NCBI RefSeq assembly: GCF_004363725.1
Contig: NZ_SNZF01000023.1
Span: 1-64,000, forward strand
Direction of reading: 5' to 3'
From: Aquamicrobium defluvii
GTDB lineage: Bacteria > Pseudomonadota > Alphaproteobacteria > Rhizobiales > Rhizobiaceae
DNA length: 64,000 bases
Shown: in pieces, positions 2,163 to 52,318 of the stretch
Layout of the letters: every line of letters begins with the position of its first letter
Numbering within the stretch: position 1 is the first letter of the stretch
The notes under the pieces: generated by a model
Databases searched by the model: none
The model's input: only the letters and a program-made list of their open reading frames with translations
Told to the model about the DNA's origin: nothing
Position numbers and translations under genes: made by a program

Positions 2163-2985
2163 TGCCACGGCCTCCCTTCAGGTCGGAGGTTCGGTTCAGC
2201 ACCCAGTCGGCCACGAGGTTCACCGAGATCGCCAGAAGCGCGATGGCGCCGGCCGGGATCAGCGCAGCCGGGATGCCGAACACGATGCCGTCCTTGTTTT
2301 CCTTGACCATGCCGCCCCAGTCGGCGTCCGGCGGCTGTACGCCAAGGCCGAGGAAGGAGAGCGCCGACAGGAACAGAACCGCGAAGATGAAACGCAGGCC
2401 AAGCTCGGCGACCAGCGGCGACAGCGCATTTGGCAGGATTTCCCGGAAGATGATCCAGGACCGGCCTTCGCCGCGCAGTTTCGCAGCCTCCACGAAGTCC
2501 ATGACGTTGATGTCCACCGCAACGGCGCGTGCGAGGCGATAGACGCGGGTTGCGTCGAGAATGCCCATGACGAGGATGAGGGTGATCAGCGTCGACGGCA
2601 GGACGGAAAGCACCACGAGCGCGAAGATCAGGGTCGGGATCGACATCAGAAGATCGACGAAGCGCGACATGGTCTGGTCGATCCATCCGCCTATCACCGC
2701 GGCGGTAAAGCCGAGCACGGAGCCGAGGATGAAGGAGAGCGCCGTGGCCGCCACCGCGATGAAAATGGTGATGCGCGCCCCGTAGATCATGCGCGAGAGC
2801 AGGTCGCGGCCAAGATTGTCGGTGCCGAGCAGATGCGTGGCGGACATCGGCCCCCATACGTCGCCGACGATCTCGCCATTGCCGTAGGGAGCGATCCATG
2901 GTGCGAACAGAGCCGCGAACAGGAACAGCGCTGTCAGGAAAAGGCCGATCAGGGCGCTCAGCGGAATGCGTTTCAGGTCAAGCAC
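2155..2985 (-). CDS. peptide-type ABC transporter permease (DppC-like)
   Basis: Inner-membrane permease of 276 residues with the BPD_transp_1 fold. An N-terminal membrane segment (ALIGLFLTALFLFAALFAPW) is followed by five more hydrophobic stretches. The EAA-type loop that contacts the ATPase is visible around residues 155-185 (DFVEAAKLRGEGRSWIIFREILPN split across the loop). A GTDNLGRD motif near residue 54 is characteristic of DppC/OppC proteins. It pairs with the DppB-like permease encoded 9 bases upstream. The substrate cannot be read from the sequence. Confidence 0.92.
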   Translation of the reverse strand: MLDLKRIPLSALIGLFLTALFLFAALFAPWIAPYGNGEIVGDVWGPMSATHLLGTDNLGRDLLSRMIYGARITIFIAVAATALSFILGSVLGFTAAVIGGWIDQTMSRFVDLLMSIPTLIFALVVLSVLPSTLITLILVMGILDATRVYRLARAVAVDINVMDFVEAAKLRGEGRSWIIFREILPNALSPLVAELGLRFIFAVLFLSALSFLGLGVQPPDADWGGMVKENKDGIVFGIPAALIPAGAIALLAISVNLVADWVLNRTSDLKGGRGNG

Positions 2986-2994
2986 GCGCGGGCC

Positions 2995-3957
2995 TCATTT
3001 CGGATGCCTGAGGCGGGGATTGGCCAGAATGGCCACGATGTCCGCGATCATGTTGAGGCCGATATAGACGGCGGCGAAGATCAGGCCCACAGCCTGCACC
3101 ACCGGCACGTCACGCTTGGAGACATGGTCGACCAGATACTGGCCCATGCCCGGATAGACGAAGATCACCTCCACGACGACGACGCCGACGATGAGATAGG
3201 CAAGGTTGAGCATCACCACATTGACGATGGGCGCCACGGCGTTGGGCATGGCATGCCTGCGGATGATGTCGAAGGCCGAAAGCCCCTTGAGTTCCGCCGT
3301 CTCGATATAGGCCGATTGCATGACGTTGAGGATCGCCGCGCGCGTCATGCGCATCATGTGCGCCAGCACCACCAGCGTCAGCGTGATCGCCGGCAGGGCG
3401 ATGGCCTGCAACCGCGCGCCGAACGACATGGTGTCGAAAACGGTCGAGCTGGCCGGAAACCATTGCAGTTCCACGGCGAAGAACAGGATCAGCAGATAGC
3501 CGATGAAGAATTCAGGCAGGGAGGTCGAGGCAAGCGCAAAGCCGGAGATCGCCTTGTCGATGACGCCGTTGCGGTAGCGCACGGCCAGCAGCCCGAGCAG
3601 AATGGCGAGCGGCACCGAGATCACCGCCGCGCAGCCGGCAAGGAACAGGGTGTTCCAGAGCCGCCCTCCGAGCGCTTCCGCAATATCGCGCCGGTTGGAC
3701 AGTGCGGTGCCGAAATCGCCGGTGAGCACGCCGCCAAGCCAGCGGAAATAGCGGATATAGGCCGGATCGTTGAGGCCGAGCTCGCGCCGGAGGTTCTCCA
3801 GCGCCTGAGGTGTTGCCGCCTGCCCGAGGATCGACTGGGCCACATCGCCCGGAAGAATCTGTGTGCCGGCGAAGATCAGCACCGAAACGGCGAAAAGGAG
3901 GAGAACGCCCAGCGCGAGACGCTGGGCGATCAGCCGCAGGATAAGCGCACTTCCCAT
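2995..3957 (-). CDS. peptide-type ABC transporter permease (DppB-like)
   Basis: Inner-membrane permease of 320 residues. It has the DppB/OppB N-terminus (RLALGVLLLFAVSVLIFAGT, then ILPGDVAQ), about six membrane segments and an EAA-type loop near residues 215-245 (YIETAELKGLSAFDIIRRHA then MPNA). It begins 10 bases after the binding-protein gene and ends 9 bases before the second permease gene, so all four transporter genes form one transcription unit. The family imports peptides, opines, nickel chelates or similar solutes. Confidence 0.92.
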   Translation of the reverse strand: MGSALILRLIAQRLALGVLLLFAVSVLIFAGTQILPGDVAQSILGQAATPQALENLRRELGLNDPAYIRYFRWLGGVLTGDFGTALSNRRDIAEALGGRLWNTLFLAGCAAVISVPLAILLGLLAVRYRNGVIDKAISGFALASTSLPEFFIGYLLILFFAVELQWFPASSTVFDTMSFGARLQAIALPAITLTLVVLAHMMRMTRAAILNVMQSAYIETAELKGLSAFDIIRRHAMPNAVAPIVNVVMLNLAYLIVGVVVVEVIFVYPGMGQYLVDHVSKRDVPVVQAVGLIFAAVYIGLNMIADIVAILANPRLRHPK

Positions 3958-3967
3958 CAGGTGCGTC

Positions 3968-5560
3968 TCACCCCTGCTTCAGCCAGACACGGATGGCCGC
4001 CTTGAGGTTGGAGGTTTCGTGGTTCGGGTCCATGACCCAGCCCTGGACTTCCTCGCGATGGGCATCGATGAAGTCGTTGAACATGGGCAGGATGAGGCCG
4101 CCGTCGTCGCGCACGATCATGGCCGCATCGCGGTACATTTCCGTGCGTTTGGCGCTGTCCAGTTCGGCGCGCGCCTCGAGGATGATCTTGTCGAACTTTT
4201 CGTTGAAGAAGCGCGTGTCGTTCCAGTCGGCACCAGTGATGTAAGCGGTCGAATACATCGAATCCTGTGTCGGGCGACCGCCCCAGTAGGAGGCGCAGAA
4301 AGGCTGCTTGTTCCAAACCTCGGTCCAGTAGCCGTCGCCCGGCTCGCGCTGCACCTGGATCTGGATGCCGGCCTTTGCCGCGCTCTGCTGGAAGAGCTGA
4401 GCGGCATCCACGGCGCCGGGGAAGGCGACGTCCGAGGTGCGCAGGAGGATCGGCCCGCTGTGGCCGGATTTCTCGAGATGGAACTTCGCCTTGTCAGGAT
4501 CGTAGGTCCGCTGCTCTATTCCTTCCGGATAGAGGGCATAGCTCTTGGAGATCGGGAAGTCGTTGCCGATCGAGGCGTAGCCCTGCATGATCTGCTGCAC
4601 CATCTGCTCGCGGTCGACGGCCAGCTTGAGCGCCATGCGCAGGTCAGCATTGTCGAACGGCGCGGTGTTGCAGAACATCGGGAAGATGTAGTGGCCCTTG
4701 GAGGGCACGTTGACGACGACGACGCCGGGAGCGCGCTTGAGCAGGGCGACGGTCTTGGGTTCCACGCGGTTGATGATGTGCACCTGACCGGATTGCAGCG
4801 CCGCCATGCGGGCGGTGGTGTCGTTCATGACGATCACCTCGACGGAATCGACATGGCCGACATCGTCGCGCCAGTAGCCGTCATATTTCACCGACATGTG
4901 GCGCACGCCGGGTTCGTTCACCTCCACCTTGTAGGGGCCGGTGCCGATGCCGGCAGTCGGGTCGTCGTAGCCGCCGTTCGGCTGGATGATCAGATGGTAG
5001 TCCGTCAGCAGCAGGGGCAGGTCGGCATTGCCGCGCTTGAGCTTGAAGACGACGTTGTCGCCGTCCACCACAACCTCGTCGATATCGCCCAGCACGCCGA
5101 GCGCGGCCGATTTCGTGTTCTCATCGGAGTGGCGGCGGATGGTCTGGGCGACGTCCTCGGGAGTGAGGTCCTTGCCGTTGTGGAAGGTGACGCCCTTGCG
5201 GATCTTGAACGCCCATTCGGAGGCGTCGTCGGAAGCGTCCCACGATTCCGCCAGAACCGGCTGGGCGCTGCCGTCTTCCGGCGACTGGAGCACCAGCAGC
5301 TCGCCCCAGGTGGAGCCGAAATTCTGCGGCACCTGCGTCAGGAACTGGGCCGGGTCGAGGCTGTTGGTGGACTCGCCCCCCACGAGGCCCATCTTGAGCG
5401 CGCCGCCTTTTTGCGGGGTCTGCGCACGGGCCGCGGTGGCGAGCATCGTGTTGGCCACTGCCGCACCGACGCCGAGCGCCGCGGCGCGGCCGAGGAAATC
5501 ACGCCGGCTGAGTTTGCCTGTTGCAACCGCACGGCTTAAAAAATCCAGTTCGCCTGACAT
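3968..5560 (-). CDS. ABC transporter substrate-binding protein, peptide/opine family (SBP_bac_5), Tat-exported
   Basis: Periplasmic binding protein of 530 residues, the normal length for the family. The N-terminus carries a twin-arginine signal (SRRDFLG, the pair at residues 19-20), a hydrophobic stretch and a likely cleavage site after ARA near residue 46, so it is probably exported folded. The mature part has family landmarks such as LAESWDASDDASEWAFKIRK, GTGPYKV and YPEGIEQRTYDPDKAK. GAGGGAG lies about 10 bases before the ATG. It is the first gene of the importer operon. The purine catabolic operon lies upstream in the same direction, which makes a nitrogenous substrate plausible but unproven. 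Confidence 0.92.
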   Translation of the reverse strand: MSGELDFLSRAVATGKLSRRDFLGRAAALGVGAAVANTMLATAARAQTPQKGGALKMGLVGGESTNSLDPAQFLTQVPQNFGSTWGELLVLQSPEDGSAQPVLAESWDASDDASEWAFKIRKGVTFHNGKDLTPEDVAQTIRRHSDENTKSAALGVLGDIDEVVVDGDNVVFKLKRGNADLPLLLTDYHLIIQPNGGYDDPTAGIGTGPYKVEVNEPGVRHMSVKYDGYWRDDVGHVDSVEVIVMNDTTARMAALQSGQVHIINRVEPKTVALLKRAPGVVVVNVPSKGHYIFPMFCNTAPFDNADLRMALKLAVDREQMVQQIMQGYASIGNDFPISKSYALYPEGIEQRTYDPDKAKFHLEKSGHSGPILLRTSDVAFPGAVDAAQLFQQSAAKAGIQIQVQREPGDGYWTEVWNKQPFCASYWGGRPTQDSMYSTAYITGADWNDTRFFNEKFDKIILEARAELDSAKRTEMYRDAAMIVRDDGGLILPMFNDFIDAHREEVQGWVMDPNHETSNLKAAIRVWLKQG

Positions 5561-47113: not shown

Positions 47114-48169
47114 ATGACCCTTGAAGCTTCGCCCTGGTGGACGCCGCACGTCCATGCCGACCGCCGTCCGCGCCTGCTGCTGCGCAATCGCATTGCCAGC
47201 GCGATCCGCGATTTGTTTGCCGCACATGACTTCGTGGAGGTCGATGCGGCGGCTCTCCAGATCTCACCCGGCAACGAAACCCATCTGTCGGCCTTTGCAA
47301 CCGCCGAAATAAAGCTGGATGGAAGCACGCAGCCATTCTATCTGCATACGTCGCCGGAGTTCGCCTGCAAGAAGCTGCTGGCTGCGGGTGAGCAGCGCAT
47401 CTTTTCCATGGGGCCGGTATACCGCAACCGCGAACGTTCGGCCCTGCACCACCCCGAATTCACCATGCTCGAGTGGTATCGGGTCGGCGAGGCTTATGAA
47501 CGTCTGATGGAGGATTGCGCCGCATTGCTGGCGCTGGCGGCCGACCGGGCTGGCGTGCGGACATTCTCCTTCCGCGACCGCACGGCCGATCCTTATGCCG
47601 AGCCGGAGCGTGTCAGCGTCGCGGAGGCGTTCCGTCGCCACGCCGGCATCGACCTTCTGGCGACGGCCGCGCAAGACGGCAGCACCGACCGCGACGCGCT
47701 GCATGCGGCGCTGGTCCAGGCTGGCCTTCGCACCGCGCCGGACGATACATGGTCCGACCTCTACAGCCGGGTGATGGTGGAATGCGTTGAGCCGCAACTG
47801 GGGCAGGGGCGGGCCACGGTGTTGTGCGAATACCCGATCGTCGAGGCGGCACTTGCCCGCCCCGCGCCGCACGATCCGCGCGTGGCCGAGCGCTTCGAGC
47901 TTTATTGCTGCGGCGTCGAACTCGCCAACGGCTTCGGTGAGCTGACCGATCCGGTCGAGCAGCGCAAGCGCTTCGAGGCCGACATGGACGAGAAGGAGCG
48001 CATCTATGGCGAGCGCTATCCGATCGACGAGGAGTTTCTGGCGGCGCTCGCCATCATGCCGGACGCCAGCGGCATTGCACTTGGCTTCGACCGTCTGGTG
48101 ATGCTGGCGGCGGGTGCCAACCGCATCGAGGACGTGATCTGGACGCCGGTGGCCGGCCGCTGGGGCTGA
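47114..48169 (+). CDS. epmA: EF-P lysine ligase (EpmA/GenX)
   Basis: Class II lysyl-tRNA-synthetase-like enzyme of 351 residues lacking the anticodon-binding domain; it attaches (beta-)lysine to EF-P. Motif 2 is FSMGPVYRNRERSALHHPEF, preceded by YLHTSPEFACKKLLAAG; motif 3 is GIALGFDRLVMLAAGANRIE. FELYCCGVELANGFGELTDP carries the amino-acid pocket. It lies head to head with its substrate gene efp. The lysine aminomutase gene epmB is not in the window. Confidence 0.95.
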   Translation: MTLEASPWWTPHVHADRRPRLLLRNRIASAIRDLFAAHDFVEVDAAALQISPGNETHLSAFATAEIKLDGSTQPFYLHTSPEFACKKLLAAGEQRIFSMGPVYRNRERSALHHPEFTMLEWYRVGEAYERLMEDCAALLALAADRAGVRTFSFRDRTADPYAEPERVSVAEAFRRHAGIDLLATAAQDGSTDRDALHAALVQAGLRTAPDDTWSDLYSRVMVECVEPQLGQGRATVLCEYPIVEAALARPAPHDPRVAERFELYCCGVELANGFGELTDPVEQRKRFEADMDEKERIYGERYPIDEEFLAALAIMPDASGIALGFDRLVMLAAGANRIEDVIWTPVAGRWG

Positions 48170-48352: not shown

Positions 48353-49753
48353 TCAGTGATCCATTGCCTTGACGATTTCCTCGGTCATTTTCTTGGCGTC
48401 GCCGAGCAGCATCATGGTTCCGTCCTTGTAGAACAAGGTGTTGTCGATGCCGGCATAGCCGGAGCCGAGCGAGCGCTTGACGAACAGGCAGGTGCGCGCC
48501 TTGTCGACGTCGAGGATCGGCATGCCGTAGATCGGCGAGGACTTGTCGTCGCGGGCCGAGGGGTTGGTGACGTCGTTGGCGCCGATGACATAGGCGACGT
48601 CGGCCTGCGCGAACTCCGAGTTGATGTCCTCGAGCTCGAACACCTCGTCGTAAGGCACGTTGGCCTCGGCCAGCAGCACGTTCATGTGGCCGGGCATGCG
48701 GCCGGCGACCGGGTGGATGGCGTACTTGACCTCGACCCCGTTGGCCTTGAGCTTGTCGGCCATCTCGCGAACGGCGTGCTGGGCCTGTGCCACCGCCATG
48801 CCGTAGCCGGGCACGATGATGACCTTCTGGGCATTCATCATCAGGTAGGCGGCGTCGTCGGCCGAGCCTTGCTTGACGGTACGCTCGATGCCGTCGTCGC
48901 CGCCTGCGGAAGCCGCCTCGCCGCCGAAGCCGCCGAGGATGACCGAGATGAAGGAGCGGTTCATGCCCTTGCACATGATGTAGGACAGGATGGCGCCCGA
49001 GGAACCCACCAGAGCACCGGTGATGATCAGTGCCAGATTGCCGAGGGTGAAGCCCAGTGCCGCCGCTGCCCAGCCCGAATAGGAATTGAGCATCGACACC
49101 ACCACCGGCATGTCGGCGCCGCCGATCGGGATGATCAGCAGCACGCCCAGCACCAGCGACAGGGCCACGATCAGCCAGAACACGGTGGTCGACTGAGTGG
49201 TGACCAGCATGACGATCAGCACCACCAGGCCAACGCCCAGCACGATGTTGATGAGGTGGCGTGCCGGCAGCATGATCGGCTTGCCGGACATGCGCCCATC
49301 GAGCTTGAGGAAGGCGATGACCGAGCCGGTGAAGGTGATGGCGCCGATGGCGACGCCAAGGCTCATCTCGACCAGCGCCTGGCCGTGGATGGCGCCGATG
49401 GTGCCGATGCCGAAGCTCTCCGGCGCATGGATGGCGGCGGCCGCGACCATCACCGCGGCGAGGCCGACGAGCGAGTGGAAGGCGGCGACCAGCTGCGGCA
49501 TCGAGGTCATGGCGATGCGCCGCGCCACCACCGCGCCGACGCCGCCGCCGATGGCGAGGCCGAGCAGGATCAGCACCAGCCCGCCGGCCGACGGCGTTGC
49601 CAGCGCGAGCGTGGTGAGGATGGCGATGCCCATGCCCACCATGCCGTAGATGTTGCCCTGGCGGCTGGTGGTCGGATGCGACAGGCCCCTTAGCGCCAGG
49701 ATGAACAGAATGCCGGAGACCAGATAGAGGAACGAAGCGAGGTTGACGGACAT
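48353..49753 (-). CDS. pntB: NAD(P) transhydrogenase beta subunit
   Basis: Proton-translocating transhydrogenase subunit of 466 residues. The first 290 residues hold about nine membrane helices (ASFLYLVSGILFILALRGLS; LIVALSLVLGVLLIIPIGGA). The C-terminal domain III binds NADP (VIIVPGYGMAVAQAQHAVRE, IHPVAGRMPGHMNVLLAEAN, VIGANDVTNPSARDD, KRSLGSGYAGIDNTLFYKDG). It is the last gene of the pntA1-pntA2-X-pntB operon. The unknown gene X ends one base before the pntB ATG. Confidence 0.96.
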   Translation of the reverse strand: MSVNLASFLYLVSGILFILALRGLSHPTTSRQGNIYGMVGMGIAILTTLALATPSAGGLVLILLGLAIGGGVGAVVARRIAMTSMPQLVAAFHSLVGLAAVMVAAAAIHAPESFGIGTIGAIHGQALVEMSLGVAIGAITFTGSVIAFLKLDGRMSGKPIMLPARHLINIVLGVGLVVLIVMLVTTQSTTVFWLIVALSLVLGVLLIIPIGGADMPVVVSMLNSYSGWAAAALGFTLGNLALIITGALVGSSGAILSYIMCKGMNRSFISVILGGFGGEAASAGGDDGIERTVKQGSADDAAYLMMNAQKVIIVPGYGMAVAQAQHAVREMADKLKANGVEVKYAIHPVAGRMPGHMNVLLAEANVPYDEVFELEDINSEFAQADVAYVIGANDVTNPSARDDKSSPIYGMPILDVDKARTCLFVKRSLGSGYAGIDNTLFYKDGTMMLLGDAKKMTEEIVKAMDH

Positions 49754-49754
49754 G

Positions 49755-50303
49755 CTACTCTATGGCCTCCATCGTACCGCCGGAGAATTCGACGGCTGCA
49801 AATTCGGGGTAGACCTGACGCAGGATAGCCACCTGCTGCAGGTCGTTGACGCGGACGAGGTACCATTGGCCTTCGTCCAGCAGGGCCAGCGTTTCCGATT
49901 TCGCCCGCATCCTGCCGGTGGCTTCGGAATTCATCACCGTCTCGGTCGGGATCAGGGCATAGGGTTCGCCGTCGGCAAGCTCGGCCTGCTTCAGCGCGTC
50001 CATGTCCATGCCGAATTCTTCCAGTTCGACGGCGGCGAGGGCGGCCTCCATCTGCTGCACCACAACGGTGCGCAGAGCCTCGACCTCAAGGCCGGCCTGC
50101 TTTGCAATGAACGCCATCACGCGCGGCGGAATGGTGTTGGCGACCTTGTCGTAATCCTCGTCGCGCATGGCCTTGTCGAAGGCCGCGACGGTCTGCTGCA
50201 GCTTCTCCTTCTCCTCCCCGCTCAGCGGACGCGCGCCGGCCGGTGCGGCAAGAATGGAAAGGGCGGCAAGGACAGGCAGGAAGGGCTTGAGAAGCGCTCT
50301 CAT
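49755..50303 (-). CDS. exported protein of unknown function inside the transhydrogenase operon
   Basis: A 182-residue protein with a signal peptide ([20 protein letters not shown], cleavage near PAGARP). The mature part is mostly helical and acidic: a helix around residues 28-60 ([20 protein letters not shown]), [20 protein letters not shown] near 68, then [20 protein letters not shown] and a beta-like end [23 protein letters not shown] 50303 overlaps the pntA2 stop in ATGA and its stop lies one base from pntB. It therefore looks like an integral operon member, not an insertion scar. Family not recognised; a periplasmic role linked to the pump is a guess. Confidence 0.8.
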
Positions 50304-50713
50304 CGTCCGTCCTTCTTCTTGTACATGGCCAGCATGCGCTGGGTGACGAGGAAGCCGCCGAAGATGTTGACGGCAGCCAGCACCAGCGCCACGAAGCCGA
50401 AGCCGGTGGCAAGGCCGGCAGCCGAGATGCCAACGGCCAGCAGCGCGCCGACCACGATCACCGAGGAGATGGCGTTGGTAACCGCCATCAACGGCGTGTG
50501 CAGCGCCGGCGTCACCGACCACACCACATAGTAGCCGACGAAGATCGCCAGCACGAAGATGGCGAAACGGAACACGAAGGGATCGACCATGCCGCCCGAC
50601 AACGCGTGGGCGGCATCGCCGGCGGCACCGGAAGTGGCCAGATCCTGTACCGCCATGCGCACCGCGGCGCTGGCCTGGTCGAGCTGGTCGAGGGCTTTCT
50701 GCAGAGTTTCCAT
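50300..50713 (-). CDS. pntA2: NAD(P) transhydrogenase alpha subunit, membrane part
   Basis: The second half of a split alpha subunit, 137 residues, with about four membrane helices ([59 protein letters not shown]) and the conserved [16 protein letters not shown] segment. ATG 50713 shares its bases with the pntA1 stop (TGATG). In E. coli this is fused to the NAD-binding part; the split form is usual in alphaproteobacteria. Confidence 0.95.
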
Positions 50714-52005
50714 CACGCGTTCTCCCCACCGGTCTTTCTGGAGGATGTGGCCGTCGACGGCTTTCTGGCCGCTTTAGGCGCAGCAGGTTTTTTCGCAGCC
50801 GCGCTTTTTGCTTTCGCCGCTGCCGGAACCCTGGCCTTCGCGGCTTCCTTCGCGGGCGCTGCCTCCTCCGCCTTGCCGGCAAAGTTCGGGTGCACGATCT
50901 TGCCGGTGTCGGTCAGCATGGTGGCTTTCACCAGCTCGTCCTCGCGGTTGATCGCAACCTGCCTGCTCTCCTTGTCGATCATCGTCTCGAGGAAAGCATA
51001 GAGGTTCCTGGCGTAGAGCAGCGAGGCCGAAGCCGCCACGCGGCCGGGCACGTTGAGATGGCCGACGATCTTCACGCCATTGGCGGTGGTCACGATCTTG
51101 CCCGCCTCGGCGCCTTCGACGTTGCCGCCACGCTCCACAGCCAGATCGACGATCACCGAGCCGGGCTTCATGCTGGCCACCACATCCGCCGCGATCAGGC
51201 GGGGGGCGGGGCGCCCGGGGATCAGCGCCGTGGTGATGACGATGTCCTGCTTGGCGATATGCTCGGCCGTCAGCGCGGCCTGCTTCGCCTGATATTCTTT
51301 GGACATCTCCTTGGCGTAGCCGCCCGCCGTCTCGGCCGCCTTGAACTCCTCGTCCTCAACGGCGAGGAACTTCGCGCCCAGCGACTGGACCTGCTCCTTC
51401 ACGGCGGGGCGCACGTCGGTGGCCGTCACCACCGCGCCCAGACGCCGTGCCGTGGCGATCGCCTGAAGTCCTGCCACTCCGACGCCCATCACAAACACCT
51501 TCGCCGCCGGCACGGTGCCTGCCGCCGTCATCATCATCGGCAGCGCCCGGTCGTATTCGGCCGCCGCGTCGATCACCGCCTGGTAGCCGGCAAGGTTGGC
51601 CTGGCTCGACAGCACGTCCATCACCTGCGCGCGGGTGATGCGCGGCATGAACTCCATCGCAAACGCGGTCACCCCCGCACGCGCCATGGCTGCGACGGAA
51701 GCCTCGTTGCCGTAAGGGTCCATGGTGGCCAGAACCGCCGCACCCGCCTTGTAGCCCTTCAGCTCCGCGTCTGTGGGGCGCCGAACTTTCAGCACCACAT
51801 CTGCCCTGGCGGCGTCGGAAGCCTTGCCGATTTTGGCGCCGGCTTTCGAAAACTCATCGTCGACGATGCGCGATGCCAAACCGGCACCGGCCTCGACGAT
51901 AACGTCGAAGCCAAGGCCGACAAGTCGCTTTACGCTGTCTGCCGAAGCCGCAACGCGAGCTTCGTTGGCTTCAACCTCGCGAGGTATGAAGATGATCTGT
52001 CCCAC
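50713..52005 (-). CDS. pntA1: NAD(P) transhydrogenase alpha subunit, NAD-binding part
   Basis: Soluble domain I of transhydrogenase, 430 residues, of the alanine dehydrogenase/PNT family: [20 protein letters not shown] at the start, [20 protein letters not shown] near 135, the NAD fold [20 protein letters not shown] near 170 and [20 protein letters not shown] near 290. The last 55 residues form a Lys/Ala/Pro-rich tail ([20 protein letters not shown]), longer than a usual linker and probably disordered. It starts at GTG 52005. It heads the operon, 88 bases downstream of the cytochrome oxidase subunit IV gene. Confidence 0.94.
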
Positions 52006-52093: not shown

Positions 52094-52318
52094 TCAGCGC
52101 AGGAGAAAGGCGCCAACGACGAAGGCAAGCAGGAAGACAATAAAGCCGGAAACGGCTCCCCCCGCAAAAAAACCGAAGGCCATGCCGATCAGGATGGCCG
52201 CGCATCCCAGCGCGGAATATTTCGTCAGCGACGTAAACAGATTGTAGGTTTTCTCATGCTCGGCATAGTCCATCTGGGCGCCGAGTTCGACAGGACCCGC
52301 GGGCGAATGGTCAGCCAT
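52094..52318 (-). CDS. aa3-type cytochrome c oxidase subunit IV
   Basis: A 74-residue membrane protein of the bacterial CoxIV family: a short polar N-terminus (MDYAEHEKTYNLFTSLTKYS) and a hydrophobic hairpin (AAILIGMAFGFFAGGAVSGF, IVFLLAFVVGAFLLR). This small gene is regularly found before pntA in Rhizobiales. The ATG follows a GGAGGGG ribosome site. It may share a promoter with the pnt operon. Confidence 0.88.
   Translation of the reverse strand: MADHSPAGPVELGAQMDYAEHEKTYNLFTSLTKYSALGCAAILIGMAFGFFAGGAVSGFIVFLLAFVVGAFLLR

Follow-up and report, generated by a model that had tools for sequence, protein, structure and literature searches.

Between pntA2 and pntB, in the NAD(P) transhydrogenase operon of Aquamicrobium defluvii, lies a small gene, here called X, and its position raises the question of whether its product serves the enzyme in whose operon it is encoded. 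We analysed the locus within a stretch of 64,000 nucleotides (hereafter the window) and compared it with its counterparts in other genomes. On the minus strand the genes follow one another in the order COX4_pro_2, pntA1, pntA2, X, pntB, the three transhydrogenase genes being identified by Pfam and NCBIfam matches (Table 1). Re-reading of the coordinates confirmed the anatomy described in an earlier note on this DNA: X overlaps the end of pntA2 by an ATGA, and a single spacer base (49754) separates its stop codon from the pntB ATG (49753). Given this overlap and this gap, X belongs to the transhydrogenase operon and is probably translated with it, as the note had also held, and probably by coupling through the ATGA; in that case X would be produced whenever the transhydrogenase is. 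No Rfam family matched between positions 47500 and 53500 of the window, and a promoter and terminator scan stayed at background (one promoter-like site against a mean of 0.7, four terminator-like sites against 3.0).

Table 1. Features of the X locus, in window coordinates
Feature	Position	Strand	Basis
Gene X, 182-aa probably exported NTF2-like protein (P0002)	49755..50303, stop codon included	minus	ORF, relatives, AlphaFold, dN/dS
Predicted signal peptide of X, residues 1-24 (AGA before RP)	50232..50303	minus	sequence reading, alignment, low pLDDT of residues 1-21
Predicted NTF2-like domain of X, residues 28-182: helices 29-47, 51-55, 60-70, 74-90, sheet, helix 155-164	49758..50222	minus	AlphaFold and structure comparison
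ATGA overlap, X start and pntA2 stop	50300..50303	minus	sequence; translational coupling inferred
pntA2, membrane subunit (PNTB_4TM), GTG start	50300..50716	minus	Pfam
pntB, NAD(P) transhydrogenase beta subunit	48353..49753	minus	Pfam and NCBIfam
pntA1, AlaDh_PNT_N and AlaDh_PNT_C domains	50713..52005	minus	Pfam
COX4_pro_2 small protein, upstream of pntA1	52094..52318	minus	Pfam; near X also where pnt was lost

A spurious reading frame can be ruled out for X, which is conserved and constrained: it stands above chance because the frame is open in 12 other genomes of the genus and is under purifying selection. The dN/dS ratio (Nei-Gojobori) was 0.103-0.283 in all 11 pairs of X genes, two of them involving genome G067 (see below), while pntB gave 0.016-0.098 in all six pairs. 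X is therefore constrained, less tightly than pntB.

The product of X starts with a hydrophobic segment of 24 residues that ends in AGA, is followed by RP and was read as a Sec signal peptide. A24 and R25 are invariant in an alignment of 13 sequences, and residues 1-21 are the sole segment of the AlphaFold model with pLDDT below 50. Cysteine, and with it a lipobox, is absent from the protein, nor did inspection by eye show another membrane segment. The signal peptide and periplasmic location proposed in the earlier note are consistent with these features, and X is probably exported by the Sec route. The model, built from 15 sequences (pLDDT 87.0, pTM 0.78), places the N-terminal helices ahead of the strands. 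Foldseek returned no match to it at E ≤ 0.001 (best E 0.0025). VIA-align, used as a second look at Foldseek's own match list, gave Z scores of 8.3-10.2 to the NTF2-like chains in the rows shown, above the typical best Z of 7-8 stated for it; ketosteroid isomerases and scytalone dehydratase are among these matches. On this model we take the fold of X to be NTF2-like, a resemblance that by itself shows no function.

The best VIA-align match was PBP3 of B. subtilis, a class B penicillin-binding protein (Z 10.2, rmsd 2.2, 103 residues). The NTF2-like N-terminal domain of class B penicillin-binding proteins, which we take to be MecA_N, is extracytoplasmic. X differs from it in being a free protein that has neither a transpeptidase nor a sequence match (Foldseek E ~0.003). 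With NTF2-like and cystatin-like proteins such as ketosteroid isomerase, scytalone dehydratase, SnoaL2 and bile-acid 7-alpha dehydratase (the last at Z 9.6, rmsd 3.8, 126 residues aligned) X shares helices packed on a curved antiparallel sheet, but it has no Pfam match to these enzymes, is probably exported, and is 6-19% identical in the rows shown. At the level of sequence, P0002 had no Pfam match even at E up to 1, NCBIfam gave nothing near its cut-off, and the X profile found no convincing relative among PDB sequences. Searches of Pfam, NCBIfam and PDB sequences with P0002 and with a 24-member alignment (A3, from which rows L041 and L043 were dropped) gave nothing usable; in A3 one member matched DUF4440 weakly (0.019) and one SnoaL_3 weakly (0.023). 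Structure prediction, a check that the earlier note had proposed, yielded an NTF2-like fold, and the sequence searches yielded no named family. X, with no Pfam match of its own, would be the window's representative of an alphaproteobacterial NTF2-like family that is uncharacterised and probably exported.

Single-sequence and profile searches agree on the presence of X in 13 of 146 genomes of the genus, in 12 of which it lies between pntA2 and pntB; it was not found in the other 133. A pntA2-like match is present in all 146. The coordinates of the pntA2 and pntB matches were surveyed, and every genome is accounted for. A gap of 10-16 nt separates the two in 129 genomes, and nowhere in these genomes was X found; in 11 the gap is 549-610 nt, and all 11 carry X. 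X lies at a contig end in G078, where pntB is cut short, and G001, G116 and G118 have no pntA2-linked PntB among the matches listed. The remaining two, G067 and G098, are absent from the pntA2 matches listed, and their best PntB match has an E of ~1e-132, against ≤1e-265 for most others. The X of G013 is 95% identical to that of the window.

In wider profile searches, X-family members turned up in at least 24 of 394 genomes from the family, at least 10 of 397 from the order and at least 4 of 367 from the class. These samples overlap and include the window's own genome, and three different profiles were used with at most 8-9 candidates per genome scored, so that the counts may miss members. Other genomes with X at the pnt junction are G189 (same family, genus g45), G835 (family f2) and G770, G956, G958 and G953 (family f23), which makes four genera and three families in all. 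When the best 30 loci were read out of 55 PntB-positive genomes in each of f2 and f23, all 60 junctions were readable, and X was present in one of 30 (L108) and in four of 30 (L138-L141), respectively. This recurrence in three families rules out a strain-specific gene, an outcome that the earlier note had named as speaking against its proposal. One of the f23 loci (L141, G953) has two tandem X genes between pntA2 and pntB, at 2898-3473 and 3479-4039 of the minus strand. At the junction of G871 (L109, 1288-1491, plus strand) there is a 68-aa ORF with a hydrophobic N-terminus unlike that of X; its last 20 residues match the C-terminus of X, with 77% nucleotide identity over 130 nt into pntB, and it may be a truncated X remnant or a shortened derivative.

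In a PntB tree of 79 rows chosen from the fetched loci and built by a quick method (the G078 row fills 12% of the columns), the families separate and the presence of X requires at least nine changes. The X tree is poorly resolved and cannot decide between one and several insertions; the data do not reject a single clade that joins pnt-embedded X with the gene of G067 (p-AU 0.219).

X is one of several kinds of gene found at this junction. In family f2 of the order, DUF2798 and Colicin_immun-like genes are likewise small extras between pntA2 and pntB, although they are unrelated to X by Pfam and are not exported NTF2-like proteins. Both were recognised by Pfam at L120 (Colicin_immun-like, E 1.3e-6), DUF2798 by eye at L137 and Colicin_immun-like genes by eye at L114 and L117; L156 and L212 have one membrane-like ORF each, with no Pfam match above the cut-off. 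The junction is therefore a repeated host of unrelated small genes, and a gene located there is not by itself evidence of a role in the transhydrogenase. A limited survey of open-licence PMC papers turned up no account of a gene inserted between pntA2 and pntB.

The relation between X and the enzyme can be read most directly in G067, the one X-bearing genome of the genus in which the linked pnt genes have been lost. Its X locus is syntenic with the window, the flanks aligning at 79-90% nucleotide identity, and COX4_pro_2 is again found upstream of X. No match to pntA1 or pntB was found in the 17-kb stretch around X, and pntA2 is a decayed remnant with gaps and stops (L015, 8410-9000; alignment score 78.5, where the highest of 100 letter shuffles reached 46.1). 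X is intact and 78-80% identical. Its divergence from the X of the window at the three codon positions is 0.104/0.088/0.357, whereas that of the pntA2 remnant from the window's pntA2 is 0.347/0.340/0.363; as a yardstick, the intact pntA2 of five relatives diverges by ≤0.122 and ≤0.074 at codon positions 1 and 2. Such evenness across codon positions suggests neutral evolution of pntA2 during much of the divergence, with strong constraint maintained on the X beside it. G067 also has a distant PntB, 54% identical in one search and 51% in another, on another contig (C4; L014, L210), and no match to X was found in the 10.5-kb stretch around it (L210). X may act in trans with this distant enzyme.

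A second case is provided by the Agrobacterium-type genomes (g34), among whose genes that of Agrobacterium cavarae (L061) groups in the X tree; the X of an uncultured Agrobacterium (L060) is 87% identical to it. We read eight such loci (L193-L196, L198, L060-L062), from seven distinct genomes, as L196 and L062 (an A. rubi record) are one contig. All eight have COX4_pro_2 upstream of X and on its strand, identified by Pfam in L061, as in the window, and by tblastn in the others, and no pnt match was found in any of the stretches. An extra gene separates COX4_pro_2 from X in two of five genomes, G405 and G178 (L196/L062 and L198). COX4_pro_2 also precedes pntA1 in ten of ten X-bearing pnt loci examined (L054-L059, L063-L066) and in all seven other pnt loci of the family that were read far enough upstream (L245, L246, L248-L252; by tblastn, the L252 match spanning 69 nt); the Agrobacterium locus therefore looks like a pnt locus from which pnt is missing. 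The simplest reading is that this lineage lost pnt and retained X, the direction being taken from synteny and not from a species-tree reconstruction.

Five of the Agrobacterium-type genomes with X were searched for PntB, the named records L060 and L061 being left out. None has a native-type PntB; three have only a PntB of 54-55% identity elsewhere in the genome, and G405 and G178, both 99% complete, gave no PntB match at E ≤ 1e-20. By comparison, 22 of 23 tested genomes of the family with no X match do have a PntB match. The dN/dS of X is 0.13 for G522-G349, 0.28 for G280-L061 and 0.17 for L060-L061; for G405-G178 it is 0.19, a rough estimate because dS is 1.86, and two further pairs of this set were too diverged for the calculation.

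X and the transhydrogenase are thus separable in both directions. The enzyme seems not to need X, since X was not found in the 129 of 146 genomes of the genus that have adjacent pntA2 and pntB, and on this result we also reject X as a subunit required for activity. Conversely, X seems not to need the enzyme, since it is constrained where the linked pnt genes were lost, including two genomes with no PntB match. The stability, assembly or proton-path partner envisaged in the earlier note finds no support in this distribution. The survey of pnt operons that the note had suggested, and the lack of co-conservation with pnt that it would have held against its own proposal, have a divided outcome: linkage does exist and recurs in three families, but it is patchy and is broken both ways. 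In the same manner, X shares an operon with PntA1-PntA2-PntB, with reading frames that overlap or abut theirs, yet it matches no Pnt family and is present elsewhere with no linked pnt. Of three features expected of an accessory subunit, X shows one, its location in the operon; it is neither present wherever the enzyme is, nor absent or relaxed after the enzyme is lost. G067 and the Agrobacterium-type genomes, which keep the embedded gene constrained in the absence of linked enzyme genes, make a clean case that position in an operon does not equal membership in a complex.

We therefore consider it probable that X is an exported NTF2-like protein which is co-expressed with pnt and selected for a periplasmic job of its own, and that it is not a PntAB subunit. 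X would be a soluble periplasmic protein, and its gene a guest at the pntA2/pntB junction; judged from the fold alone, its job would most likely be ligand binding or scaffolding, as for other NTF2-like domains. Several observations weigh on the other side: the recurrent placement at the junction and the tandem X of G953 hint at a benefit from this particular operon, the distant PntB retained in G067 and in three of five Agrobacterium-type genomes could be served by X in trans, and COX4_pro_2 is separated from X by an extra gene in G405 and G178. A facultative or regulatory interaction between X and the transhydrogenase is possible. In its full form, such a reading would have X bind the periplasmic loops of PntA2 and PntB and tune stability or proton flow; once the native enzyme was gone, X would serve the distant PntAB or persist for a second role. 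The exact and repeated position between both membrane subunit genes in three families favours it, as do the tandem and the distant PntB genes just named, but we think it unlikely, given the many genomes of the genus with adjacent pntA2 and pntB in which X was not found, the amino-acid-level constraint on X in G405 and G178, and the distant X family, albeit of remote relatives, in five small genomes in which PntB was not found (G327, G386, G543, G515 and G253; four of g107, one of g109). Nor is there a matching signal in the enzyme. In a scan of 13 X-bearing and 32 X-free rows of the family, no PntA2 column was tied to X, and past the start codon no PntB column marks all five X-bearing clades. 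The PntB scan returned the start codon and five columns, these common to the same three of the five clades; the five residues are also found in X-free rows (L168, L169, L171-L173, L096), most of them near two of these clades in the PntB tree, and are therefore attributed to shared ancestry and not to co-evolution.

The constancy of COX4_pro_2, still found upstream of X in G067 and at all eight Agrobacterium-type loci although pnt is gone, might mean that X pairs with this small membrane protein in an energy-membrane module of which pnt is the removable part. Yet no COX4_pro_2 was found by tblastn in the 2.3-2.9 kb upstream of pntA1 at four X-bearing loci outside the family (L241-L244), it occurs with no X at six of the seven further pnt loci of the family, and distant homologues of X are located elsewhere, for example beside glutamine synthetase, which makes the pairing very unlikely. 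A wider version, quite unlikely as we see it, has X as the periplasmic part of a COX4_pro_2, transhydrogenase and X energy-membrane module, able to bind either type of PntAB and with a PntAB-independent role besides; if true, X would be, to our knowledge, the first periplasmic factor tied to transhydrogenase. Finally, the patchiness of X on the PntB tree and the truncated remnant in G871 are what a neutral or selfish passenger of no benefit to the cell would leave, but dN/dS is low in every pair, and X is strongly constrained beside the decayed pntA2 of G067, so that we give this explanation hardly any credence.

X-family genes were also observed in several other settings. In G366, G423 and G285, X lies away from the pnt operon, the pntA2/pntB junction of which has no X. 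Plasmid records of Bartonella sp. HY328 and HY329 contain a 25.5% match over 84% of X, annotated 'hypothetical protein'. Distant relatives follow a VWA-domain protein at two loci (L199 by Pfam, L200 by resemblance). Others, in small genomes, are directly downstream of glutamine synthetase (L201 by Pfam; L202, L206 and L208 by resemblance), and at L201, L202 and L206 a gene that resembles PII in sequence lies upstream as well.
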